From positions 1 through 64,000 of the forward strand of contig NZ_LXYG01000001.1 in NCBI RefSeq assembly GCF_001650905.1: 64,000 bases of DNA, written 5' to 3'. The translations under genes were made by a program, and so were the position numbers. Positions 5,630 to 9,000 of the stretch are shown here, piece by piece. Under the pieces are notes generated by a model. The model had not been told where the DNA came from. It saw only the letters and a program-made list of their open reading frames with translations, and did no database searches. This DNA is from Balneola sp. EhC07 (GTDB taxonomy: Bacteria > Bacteroidota > Rhodothermia > Balneolales > Balneolaceae). Numbering within the stretch: the stretch's first letter is position 1; the number at the start of each line of letters is the position of its first letter.

Positions 5630-6061
5630 TTGGTACTTGTAACAAGAAAAACACATTTTAACGCTGCACATCGGCTGCATAATCCATCTAAAAGTGATGA
5701 GTGGAACAAGAAGACCTTTGGAAAGTGCAATCATCCAAACTGGCATGGACATAATTATGTTATGGAAGTAACAGTAGCAGGAGAGCCAAATCCTGAAACC
5801 GGTTTTATAATTGATCTTTCGGATCTAAAGCAGATCATTGAAGAAAATATAGTGGAACCTTGCGACCACAAAAATCTGAATCTGGATGTCCCTTTTTTGG
5901 AAGGAATCCTACCAAGTTCGGAAAACCTGGTTAAAGCGTTTTATGAAGAGTTAAAAGAAGAAGTAGAAGAAGCTTCTTCGGAAGGAGGAGTACTCTACAG
6001 CGTCAAACTCTACGAAACCGAAAGAAATATTGCAGAGTATTGCCCTTTTAAGAAGGTTTAG
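5630..6061 (+). CDS. 6-pyruvoyl-tetrahydropterin synthase family protein (PTPS/QueD)
   Basis: 143 residues. Zinc ligands fit His14 (FNAAHRL), His39 and His41 (WHGHNY), with the probable catalytic Cys33 in FGKCNHPN. The GFIIDLSDLK, CDHKNLN and ETERN motifs complete the T-fold family signature. The FGKCNHPNWHGHNY form and the length resemble 6-pyruvoyl-tetrahydropterin synthase more than the shorter QueD of queuosine synthesis, but the sequence alone does not decide between them. A stop codon lies two codons upstream and no early ATG exists, so the start is TTG at 5630, preceded by an AAAAAAGGG ribosome site. It stands alone after the terminator of the previous unit. Confidence 0.9.
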   Translation: MVLVTRKTHFNAAHRLHNPSKSDEWNKKTFGKCNHPNWHGHNYVMEVTVAGEPNPETGFIIDLSDLKQIIEENIVEPCDHKNLNLDVPFLEGILPSSENLVKAFYEELKEEVEEASSEGGVLYSVKLYETERNIAEYCPFKKV

Positions 6062-6118
6062 TTATGTAAATTTTACGCCTCTAATCAGCCACATCTGTAA
6101 AATCCGTGTTAATTCTCG

Positions 6119-6340
6119 TTCCGTAGCTCCGCTGCGGAATGCAATTTGGAAGCTCCTGCTTCCTGTAATAATGTGCCTTGATGATGGATTTTGAATAGCC
6201 TAAGGGAAGTCTGTGACTTCCATCCTTATGCTTGTTGAGGATTATAGATTTAGAAAGGCATGTCATAATTTAAAAACCAAAGCTGGTAATGCAAGTTACA
6301 AACTTGCTGAGCTGCTACTCTTAAGTCACAGACTTAAGAG
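6119..6340. repeat. Cluster of five short palindromes (REP-like element)
   Basis: Five hairpins with small loops lie in a 320-bp stretch without a gene: an imperfect TTCCGTAG/CTGCGGAA (6119-6139); GGAAGC/GCTTCC with loop TCCT (6148-6163); GGAAGTC/GACTTCC with loop TGT (6205-6221), extended by TAAGG/CCTTA; GCAAGTT/AACTTGC with loop ACA (6291-6307); and a perfect 10-bp CTCTTAAGTC/GACTTAAGAG with loop ACA (6318-6340). A decayed set with the same words occurs at 26642-26773. The arrangement resembles REP/BIME elements moved by Y1 transposases, but no transposase gene is in the window. Confidence 0.7.
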
Positions 6341-6384
6341 ATCTTTGGGGAGTCCGCTTGAAACGCTTATTAAGTTGTAATTTA
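6341..6384 (-). other. Possible truncated attC half-site
   Basis: On the reverse strand, just after the stop of the 163-codon gene, the sequence reads ...AATAAGCGTTTCAAGCGGAC. This resembles the left inner box (L'') of integron attC sites. No matching right half was found. The palindrome cluster begins about 10 bases further on, so the site, if real, is interrupted or decayed. Confidence 0.3.
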
Positions 6385-6873
6385 GGACGTGCCACCACTG
6401 GCTTCTCCAACTGGCCACCATTTGAAAAACCAAATAAAGCTCTGTTCATATTCAGCACCAAACCCATAGACAGAAACACCCGAAAAAAAGTTAACATAGA
6501 AGGGATAAGTATACTCTACATCTACACTGAAATTCAGACTACCAGATTGGTAGTCGCTAAATAGATCTGTTGATGAATCTTTAAATATTAGATTTTGAAC
6601 TTGGCTTTCAACTTTTAGCTTTTCTAAGAAAGATGATCTCGTTGATTCTTTAAAATGAGAGATATCATCAAATTCCACAATTCTACCATCTGAGGTTTCG
6701 AGTGTATAGGTAGAAAACACAAATAATGTATCAATATGGGGTATAGGCCCCCGGTAATCGAAATAATTTAAGGACAGATCTAAAGAATGCTCCTTACCAA
6801 TGAAATACCAAGAAATAGCATTTAAAAACAAAACACAGAATAAAACTATAAAGATGTATTTAATTAGTTTCAA
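6382..6873 (-). CDS. Hypothetical membrane-anchored protein, probable integron cassette gene
   Basis: 163 residues, not recognised. Residues about 4-24 form one hydrophobic segment (YIFIVLFCVLFLNAISWYF), either an uncleaved anchor or a signal peptide. The rest is a predicted extracytoplasmic domain rich in Asp, Ser and aromatics. An in-frame stop lies two codons upstream and no ATG occurs early, so the start is TTG at 6873. That start is 18 bases past the proposed attC site at 6892-7016, the spacing expected of a cassette gene. The gene has no relation to its neighbours, also typical of cassettes. Function unknown. Confidence 0.6.
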   Translation of the reverse strand: MKLIKYIFIVLFCVLFLNAISWYFIGKEHSLDLSLNYFDYRGPIPHIDTLFVFSTYTLETSDGRIVEFDDISHFKESTRSSFLEKLKVESQVQNLIFKDSSTDLFSDYQSGSLNFSVDVEYTYPFYVNFFSGVSVYGFGAEYEQSFIWFFKWWPVGEASGGTS

Positions 6874-6891
6874 TGGTTAATGGGTTTGGTA

Positions 6892-7016
6892 ACATAACGA
6901 CCCTGCGTTTAATGGGCACAGGGATTAAGTTTTTGTTGAAGTAACTGATTTATTTTATTGCACACAAGTTATTGATCGCACTCCGCCCGCGTCTGATTTA
7001 AAATGCTTTGTTATGT
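6892..7016 (-). other. Putative integron attC recombination site
   Basis: 125 bp bounded by the inverted 7-mers ACATAAC (6892-6898) and GTTATGT (7010-7016), close to the RYYYAAC/GTTRRRY core sites. Inside them lies a second, imperfect complementary pair: GCGTTTAAT (6905-6913) with ATTTAAAATGC (6996-7006), having bulged bases on one side, followed by GGGC (6914-6917) with GCCC (6985-6988). This nested layout with extrahelical bases, and the length, fit attC folded on the reverse strand. The TAA stop of the gene ending at 7011 lies inside the ACATAAC box, a common feature of cassette genes. No integrase is visible. Confidence 0.65.
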
Positions 7017-7229
7017 ACTGGGTTCTTGGAGCCATAGTTTGCCAGTTTTAACAACCTCACAATGGTAACAACCGCTGCTTTGATTATCAATTTTATACCA
7101 TTCATGTGAACCATCTTTCTTTTCGCAATCTTTTCCTTTCTTAGCAACACCAAGATTGATTAGAAACCATGGTAGGTTACTTCTAAGCCAAGTTCTTTTA
7201 CGATATGGACCACCAGTGAATTCAGGCAT
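7011..7229 (-). CDS. Small hypothetical protein, probable integron cassette gene
   Basis: 72 residues, basic N-terminal half (GGPYRKRTWLRSNLPWFL), then a Cys-containing compact region (KGKDCEKKDGSHEWYKID, SGCYHCEVV). The three Cys and a His suggest a small zinc-binding or disulfide fold; I do not recognise the family. It starts at an ATG at 7229 and its TAA stop is part of the outer box of the attC-like site, supporting a cassette origin. No clear attC-type site was found between this gene and the M28 peptidase gene, so one boundary of the cassette is not defined. Confidence 0.6.
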   Translation of the reverse strand: MPEFTGGPYRKRTWLRSNLPWFLINLGVAKKGKDCEKKDGSHEWYKIDNQSSGCYHCEVVKTGKLWLQEPST

Positions 7230-7272: not shown

Positions 7273-9000
7273 CTATAGGTTTTTCAAAAGATCAACCAGA
7301 GCATTTTTCTCCGAAATTATTTTTTGGGTTGCAGCATTGATCTGTTCGGTAAACATGGGATCATCTTTTGTAAGGATGTCGGAAGATCTCTCAATTGATT
7401 TAACATACCAATCTGCCCAGGTTTCTAAAATATCGATCTCCTTTTCAAGATCGCCATTTTCTGAGAGTTCATTTTTGCTTAATTCAAATTCAACATGTAG
7501 CCGGTCAATGGCAGCATTTGTGGTTTCCTCTAAAATTAAAGTAGCGGCTTTTTTCTGATCTCCTGTCAGTGTTAATGCACTTACTAATGCACCTGTGCCC
7601 ACATTTTTAAGAGTCGATTTGGAAACTTTGTCGATCCTGTCATTATCAGTGTGATAAAACTGATCTGTAAAATGCCACAGTAATAAACCTGGAATATCGT
7701 TTCTCAAAAACGGAACATGATCACTTCCGCCTTCATAGGGGTTTACATTAACGATCCAACCTTTTGCTTTTCCCTGTTCCTGAAATCTGTTTAAAATAAA
7801 ATCATTGAAGTAATGAGGAGTCATTTCTTCTTTAGTTAGTGGTCGACCACCCCATTCTGAATGTTTTTCATCTCCACGAGTCCAAATTGCTCCGGGATCG
7901 GGCATTTTCTCAATTAAAAAAGACCCGCCGGTGACATCGGTATTCTGACCAACCATATCGAGACTCATTCCCCATTTAATGGTTTTCGCTCTTTCTTCAT
8001 CTTCGGTGATGTACCGATTTGTAGATACGATCTCATCTCCGAATAAGTAAGTTATTGTTCTCTCCGGATCGATCTTGCCTGCTTTCAATAATCGCGCACT
8101 GCTGCTTGCAACTTCAGCCAAAACGCCCACTCCAGACGCATTATCGTTTGCGCCCGGTTCCTGAACATGTGCGCTGAATACAAAGCGGTCTTCAGGATAT
8201 TTACTTCCTTTTAGTTCGGCAACAATAGTCAGTTCTTCTGATTCATAGATCTTTGTGCTCAAATCTATTTTTAAAGAATTATTTCCATTTTTGAGCGCTT
8301 GCAAAAGGTTTTCTTTAGCCGCATAAGAAAGTAAAACTCCCCATGATTCTTTGTCTTCATCCAGTGAAATACCTGAAAACTGAATAGAAGTTTGATTCTT
8401 CTCCGGTTGTGTGTAATGGGGCATTCTGTAAGCAAGAACTCCGGCAGCTCCTCTTTTTACAACCGCTTCATTGAACAAATAACGAACTGAAGTTTCTGCA
8501 AATACGACTTTCCCTTTAACGTCGGTATCAAAATTTAGATCTCTTCCTTCGCCAACATTCACAACTTCATATTCCTCCACACCCTTTGTACTAAAAGAAT
8601 TGATAGCCATCATATTCCGGTTCTTATCAAAATTGAGTAAAGGCTCACCATTGCCTAATTCAAGCATTCCGGAAACAGGTTCCCATGTAGGTCTGTTTAG
8701 CTCCCTTTTTTCAATTCTGTATGTGAGACGATCATTCGAAGCTGCTTCAGATTCCTCAACAAACCCTTCATTTTTAAGAAGTTCTTCCACAAAATAAATG
8801 CTGTTGTTAAATCCTTCGTTACCAACTACACGGAAGTACTGTTCTATATAGGCAACGGTTTCGAAAGCTTGTTCTGCATTAAATTCTGCATCCGTCATTT
8901 CAAAATAGGGCTGGACTAACGGTACGTGAACTTGATCTGTCTTAGTACAGGAAAGAGAAAGGAATGCTATAATGAGCAGAGAAAGAGACTTAAGTTTCAT
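7273..9000 (-). CDS. M28 family zinc metallopeptidase, lipoprotein
   Basis: 575 residues with a lipobox (SLSC, Cys18), so an envelope enzyme. A protease-associated-like insert (GKVVFAETSVRYLFNEAVVKRGAAGVLAY) precedes the catalytic domain. The co-catalytic zinc region is visible as FSAHVQEPGANDNASG, FGDEIVST, SLDMVGQ and the late GGSDHVPF histidine. Family members are aminopeptidases or carboxypeptidases that trim peptides in the periplasm or outside the cell. The first zinc position reads SAHVQEP rather than the usual SAHxDS, so substrate or metal handling may differ. The C-terminal 90 residues look helical. It is transcribed alone, upstream of the two cassette-like genes. Confidence 0.88.
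   Translation of the reverse strand: MKLKSLSLLIIAFLSLSCTKTDQVHVPLVQPYFEMTDAEFNAEQAFETVAYIEQYFRVVGNEGFNNSIYFVEELLKNEGFVEESEAASNDRLTYRIEKRELNRPTWEPVSGMLELGNGEPLLNFDKNRNMMAINSFSTKGVEEYEVVNVGEGRDLNFDTDVKGKVVFAETSVRYLFNEAVVKRGAAGVLAYRMPHYTQPEKNQTSIQFSGISLDEDKESWGVLLSYAAKENLLQALKNGNNSLKIDLSTKIYESEELTIVAELKGSKYPEDRFVFSAHVQEPGANDNASGVGVLAEVASSSARLLKAGKIDPERTITYLFGDEIVSTNRYITEDEERAKTIKWGMSLDMVGQNTDVTGGSFLIEKMPDPGAIWTRGDEKHSEWGGRPLTKEEMTPHYFNDFILNRFQEQGKAKGWIVNVNPYEGGSDHVPFLRNDIPGLLLWHFTDQFYHTDNDRIDKVSKSTLKNVGTGALVSALTLTGDQKKAATLILEETTNAAIDRLHVEFELSKNELSENGDLEKEIDILETWADWYVKSIERSSDILTKDDPMFTEQINAATQKIISEKNALVDLLKNL

Follow-up and report, generated by a model that had tools for sequence, protein, structure and literature searches.

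A probable eroded, integrase-less integron satellite with two gene cassettes in Balneola sp. EhC07

The window analysed here, the whole stretch of 64,000 nucleotides from Balneola sp. EhC07, contains between a PTPS gene and an M28 peptidase gene a locus that is very probably a satellite of the Balneola chromosomal integron system, small, eroded and lacking an integrase, with two cassettes, one intact attC site and half of a second. The genome of the window (G000) was compared with seven congeners (G001 to G007) and with G020 and G060, which represent two other genera. A first-pass annotation of this DNA had proposed an attC with two gene cassettes and no integrase, a reading that is supported in substance. 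The features of the locus are:

5630..6061, plus strand: PTPS gene, chromosomal flank (PF01242, E=2e-35), present in 8/8 Balneola genomes
6081..6348, no strand: short palindromic (REP-like) repeats, clustered between the PTPS gene and the half attC, borders approximate
6349..6375, minus strand: remaining half (R''-L'' side) of a second attC, located behind gene B and truncated at the palindromic repeat cluster
6382..6873, minus strand: gene B, cassette gene of 163 aa (open reading frame; relatives in G060 and G020 are flanked by attC sites)
6892..7016, minus strand: attC of gene A's cassette (53.6 bits, E=2.4e-13, model made without the window site)
Arms of this attC in the model alignment, minus strand: R'' 7010-7016, L'' 6993-7006, L' 6905-6916, spacer 6899-6904, R' 6892-6898
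6897..6898, minus strand: predicted joining point of IntI at the G/TT step of R', which we presume from general integron knowledge and from the matching of R boxes in the genus
7011..7229, minus strand: gene A, cassette gene of 72 aa (open reading frame; adjoins attC halves in G001)
7273..9000, minus strand: M28 peptidase gene, chromosomal flank (PF04389, E=3.2e-17)

Read on the minus strand, the site begins with the box ACATAAC (7016-7010) and ends with GTTATGT (6898-6892), and its length is 125 bp, in agreement with the first-pass annotation. The stop codon TAA of gene A lies within the first core box and the TTG start of gene B 18 bases beyond the second, both of which had been pointed out before and were found in the sequence. 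The same holds for the imperfect inner pair with a bulge: L'' (7006-6993) and L' (6916-6905) pair with an unpaired T in L'' at 7000 and several mismatches, and in this model-fitted alignment the spacers are AAA and AGGGTC. According to the description in PMC11641012, an attC hairpin has two integrase-binding boxes with a central spacer that stays unpaired, a variable tip, and two or three extrahelical bases. The window site has two inverted box pairs (R''/R' and L''/L') and a variable tip, and its match to the model extends over all 107 positions.

The core-box palindrome alone is at chance level and is not evidence by itself: two NNNTAAC/GTTANNN pairs at comparable spacing occur in the window, compared to a mean of 1.56 (range 0-4) in 50 dinucleotide shuffles. 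The exact palindrome, one of the features named in the earlier annotation, carries no weight by itself; in arrays, R'' usually agrees with the R' of the site before it and not with its own. Folding of a 139-base stretch gave no hairpin more stable than chance on either strand, with z = +1.42 on the plus strand (188/200 shuffles reach an equal or better fold) and z = +0.81 on the minus strand (154/200). attC sites with long tips may not need to fold more stably than chance. Rfam at gathering thresholds gave 0 matches across the window, and a scan of the window detected no tRNA or tmRNA.

A covariance-model search had been suggested as a check. The model (R1) was made from an alignment of nine other attC-like sites in this genome, excluding the window site, and the paired arms were supplied to it. 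It yielded a significant minus-strand match over 6892-7016 with 53.6 bits, corresponding to E=2.4e-13 in the 64 kb and 1.4e-11 genome-wide. Judged by this model score the whole site is beyond chance, which at the level of sequence identifies it as a genuine attC. BLAST against the own genome found eight other places that share part of the window site, and the sites around these matches have the common form TAACAAGCGTTTCAAGCGGAC...CGCCGCTTAAACGC.GGGTCGTTATGT. Altogether, the genome carries at least 21 sites at E<1e-3, confirming the expectation that the same kind of site would be present elsewhere. Since 150 of the 582 first-look candidates were scored in this genome, and 28 candidates per genome under stricter filters in the scan of the order, all site counts are lower bounds. 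The sites form three clusters and four singles:

C17:62668-68895: attC cluster, seven sites and one weak site
C18:148805-153903: attC cluster, six sites
C15:189639-191622: attC cluster, three sites
C2:16983, C17:79347, C17:399361 and the window site: single attC sites

Of 20 aligned sites only two are weaker than the window site, which has unpaired positions in L''/L'. An unpaired L'' base is present in 20/20 of these sites (14 C, 6 T) and their spacers have 2-3 and 6 bases, in an alignment that is fitted to the model. Per-site covariation over the 20 sites showed no excess over shuffles. The final six bases of each R' in an array are part of the cassette that follows; a lack of covariation in the R boxes is therefore expected if cassettes are circles and was not counted against the attC reading, while the L''/L' pairing remains without covariation support. 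A canonical attC of G000 had no match in plasmids. Right halves of attC were also found fused to another palindromic repeat (CCCATCCCTGTCCC...), a composite that is the same at three places (L021:14723-14818, L021:13332-13427 and L022:8671-8788).

If a cassette is a circle opened at G/TT in R', the R'' behind a given gene is expected to pair with the R' that precedes this gene and not with the R' of its own site. Of 54 cassettes, which are not all independent since some cassettes of G000 and G007 are homologous, 43 have all three variable R'' bases paired with the preceding R' and 2 with the R' of their own site; the matching total was reached by none of 10,000 shuffles. These cassettes were taken from G000, G007, G002, G003, G004, G006, G020 and G060, using 72 of 82 sites and pairing neighbours less than 1,500 bases apart. 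Eight lone sites (the window site, L018, L021, L227, L225, L236, L250 and L257) and two sites cut off by the end of a stretch (L238 and L244) were left out. In these sequences the R boxes match as expected for cassette circles across Balneola and the two other genera. The palindrome could also be an inverted repeat that arose by chance, or a repeat of another kind lying between two ordinary genes, and the chance-level count of box pairs, the chance-level folding energy and the missing covariation excess would agree with that. This explanation is extremely improbable: it is contradicted by the score of a site that was absent from the training set of the model, by the R-box matching and by attC sequences that adjoin both genes elsewhere.

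Gene B had no match over cut-off in Pfam (one match below the cut-off, E=0.075) and none in NCBIfam, in PADLOC or among plasmids; it is present in 5 of the 128 genomes of the order, the own genome included. A relative in G060 (47% identical, C1:1016953-1017426) is located between attC sites at 1017447-1017536 and 1016851-1016940. A second relative, in G020 (27%, C5:533163-533654), is directly followed by an attC at 533668 and preceded by another (L247:1350-1478), and the array that holds it has an intI gene at 529082. The relatives in G001 and G002 (42%) have no attC within the fetched flanks. Behind gene B of the window, the half site (6375-6349) consists of the R''-like ACTTAAT followed by AAGCGTTTCAAGCGGACTC, which is letter-identical in site L017:12669; against the model the half site scores weakly, with 14.8 bits and E=0.13.

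Gene A likewise had no match over cut-off in Pfam and none in NCBIfam or PADLOC. It is found in 4 of the 128 genomes, including its own, the fourth being a weak match with two stops. In G001 gene A is located at a contig end and is preceded by the right half of an attC ending in GTTAGGT (18.5 bits, E=0.048), a site that is seen in part. Behind it follows the R''-L'' half ACCTAACAAGCGTTTCAAGCGGGCG, 13 bases after TGGCTC compared to 12 in the window; this half gave no model match at E<=0.5. Thus, single genes joined to attC sequence, in arrays or at varied places, were found for gene A in G001 and for the relatives of gene B in G060 and G020. The two genes, which had been called orphans, are cassette genes that adjoin attC sequence in these three relatives. 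The claim of two gene cassettes stands insofar as both genes are seen beside attC elsewhere, although the second attC of the window is only half a site.

Comparison of sister genomes, also suggested before, showed that gene A and gene B are variably present. In the nearest sister, G007, whose M28 gene is 96% identical, gene A likewise follows the M28 gene; it has no attC there, and approximately 670 bp of the locus (window 6349-7018) are absent. Since gene A is joined to attC sequence in G001, the state in G007 is best read as a deletion, which is the most likely course judging from the sequences compared. We also considered gene A as an ordinary chromosomal gene next to which attC and gene B were freshly inserted; this was ruled out by the attC halves beside gene A in G001, at nearly the same distance. 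Between the M28 gene and gene A of the window, neither an attC nor a clear R' box was detected, and the left border of gene A's cassette is therefore lost or unrecognisable.

Integrase genes (intI) were called at the TIGR02249 cut-off of 265 bits. In the whole genome of G000 no match exceeded this cut-off (best match 80.7 bits), confirming the earlier statement that the site is without an integrase, and a complete integron was not found. A looser integrase search gave matches in 14/14 control genomes, over cut-off in none of them, so matches of the order of 80.7 bits are expected of other tyrosine recombinases. An open reading frame of this kind (tyrosine-recombinase-like, 375 aa, far below the IntI cut-off) is present in L014 (G000:C16:65486-65695), about 1.5 kb from an isolated attC-interior stretch at C16:67163.

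Parts of the G007 integron, which has intI at C18:74583-75524 and attC matches at C18:60176-72754, are syntenic with the C17 cluster in G000. In the latter, 82 bp of attI remain, extending approximately to the G/TT step and 90% identical to G007, while intI is gone, a short palindrome-rich stretch takes its place and the first cassette differs from that of G007. A single C17 stretch runs unbroken through attI, the first cassette and the sequence that borders intI on its far side in G007; the loss of intI is therefore not due to a contig break. As far as the assembled sequence goes, G000 has lost intI and has retained attI and the array at the main integron place. An intI gene that is present in the organism and missing from the assembly, which has 20 contigs and is 98.56% complete, is very improbable in view of this unbroken stretch.

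In the order, IntI over cut-off was detected in 64 of 128 genomes and attC-like sites in at least 78. Six of the seven Balneola congeners have IntI, the exception being G005. Both were present in 53 genomes, attC only in 25, IntI only in 13 and neither in 37 (Fisher p=4.5e-6, a test that ignores shared ancestry and takes IntI at E<=1e-60, giving 66 genomes instead of the 64 over cut-off). G005, the only congener besides G000 without intI, also has no attC match, and it may have lost the whole system.

On the chromosome, the place behind the PTPS gene is variable. The repeat cluster of the window abuts the half attC, and 6110-6352 has 23 other partial matches in the genome. A palindromic repeat cluster follows PTPS in G000, G007, G001 and G004, after which the content differs: genes B and A in G000, gene A in G007, and in G001 the genes X and Y, separated by an attC (49.6 bits). 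G004 has a SnoaL-like gene preceded by an R'-like remnant, and in addition a gene that is followed by an attC (53.6 bits). Gene X shares 63% identity with the cassette that comes first in the main array of G000. Behind PTPS, folE2 (PF02649) is found in G006, a like sequence in G003 and G005, and another gene in G002. A stretch of L215 (G002) is the end of an S-adenosylmethionine synthetase and has no bearing on the locus. Where G000 and G007 have the M28 gene, G001 and G004 have a preA-like gene, and the flank by this gene is 93% identical between the two over 383 bp up to ...TGTTATGTG, where two different genes begin, one of them with an attC behind it. No intI and no long array was found near PTPS in the eight Balneola genomes, within the fetched flanks.

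In the mechanism that we propose for the satellite, genes A and B would have arrived as circular cassettes moved by IntI. The integrase would bind the folded bottom strand of attC (the plus strand of the window) and join cassettes at the G/TT step of R', predicted between 6898 and 6897. The attC at 6892-7016 would stem from gene A's cassette, and the half site at 6349-6375 would be the remnant of gene B's. Before intI was lost, we infer, IntI acted here, either from the main integron in trans or within an array that was formerly larger, and the locus would now be frozen.

For the first of these routes, IntI in trans would have placed the cassettes, singly or together, at a non-classical (attG-type) place near PTPS. 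The change to different genes beyond the shared G001/G004 flank, the different cassette-like content behind PTPS in four genomes and the likeness of gene X to a cassette of the main array argue for it. However, the interval from M28 to gene A in the window shows no clear G/TT border, a set of four genomes is small, and the difference between M28 and preA mixes in rearrangement; we consider this route a serious candidate that falls just short of probable. Alternatively, the locus could be a fragment that genome rearrangement split from a larger array, without insertion in trans, as the truncated attC next to the repeat cluster and the varying neighbours of PTPS suggest. The lack of intI and of a long array at this place in the fetched flanks of the eight genomes speaks against such a break, which we regard as quite possible, if somewhat doubtful. 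The varied content behind PTPS fits repeated exchange of cassettes in trans, as far as four genomes can indicate. The PTPS flank could even be a satellite hotspot in Balneola, at which IntI of the main integron repeatedly swapped cassettes in trans, and REP-like repeats halve attC sites and lock cassettes in; this wider picture is tentative and on balance rather unlikely.

Strictly, the eroded satellite is a single-site element (SALIN, as defined in PMC12690207), having one attC and no integron integrase over cut-off, or an eroded two-cassette CALIN. IntegronFinder 2.0 reports CALINs by default from two sites up (PMC9024848), and because only one attC is intact and the half site is weak (E=0.13), a two-site threshold would miss the locus. 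Of the first-pass label of a CALIN/SALIN-type cluster, the SALIN part fits; the CALIN part would have to count the weak half site as the second of two. Such elements can arise by off-target insertion through an IntI elsewhere, by loss of intI or by rearrangement, routes given in PMC8618304. Like CALINs and SALINs, the Balneola locus has attC and cassette genes without an integrase nearby, here without one genome-wide; unlike them, it comprises one intact site plus a half site and both of its outer borders are eroded.

This kind of element is already known. For this lineage, a limited search of open-licence literature found no description of it and, among the papers listed, no study of integrons in Balneola, Balneolaeota, Gracilimonas, Rhodohalobacter and kin or in the order, in line with the earlier remark that little had been described. 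The main text of PMC9024848 mentions neither 'balneol' nor 'rhodotherm'. The locus points to a chromosomal-integron system spread through the order. In addition, G007 with intI and G000 without it, sharing the same attI and a syntenic array, are a natural before/after pair in which the fate of cassettes after loss of the integrase can be followed.

Among known systems, Salinibacter ruber M1 is named for a complete integron in PMC9024848 and is comparable, by description and not by sequence, as a complete integron within the Bacteroidetes/Chlorobi group. For Xanthomonas, PMC12444791 describes an ancestral integron, repeated inactivation of intI and CALINs at conserved loci. These sedentary chromosomal integrons belong to a different order, and the Balneola pattern comes from eight genomes, one per species; the two systems are alike in having a lineage-wide integron, the loss of intI in some members and chromosomal satellites (PMC12444791).
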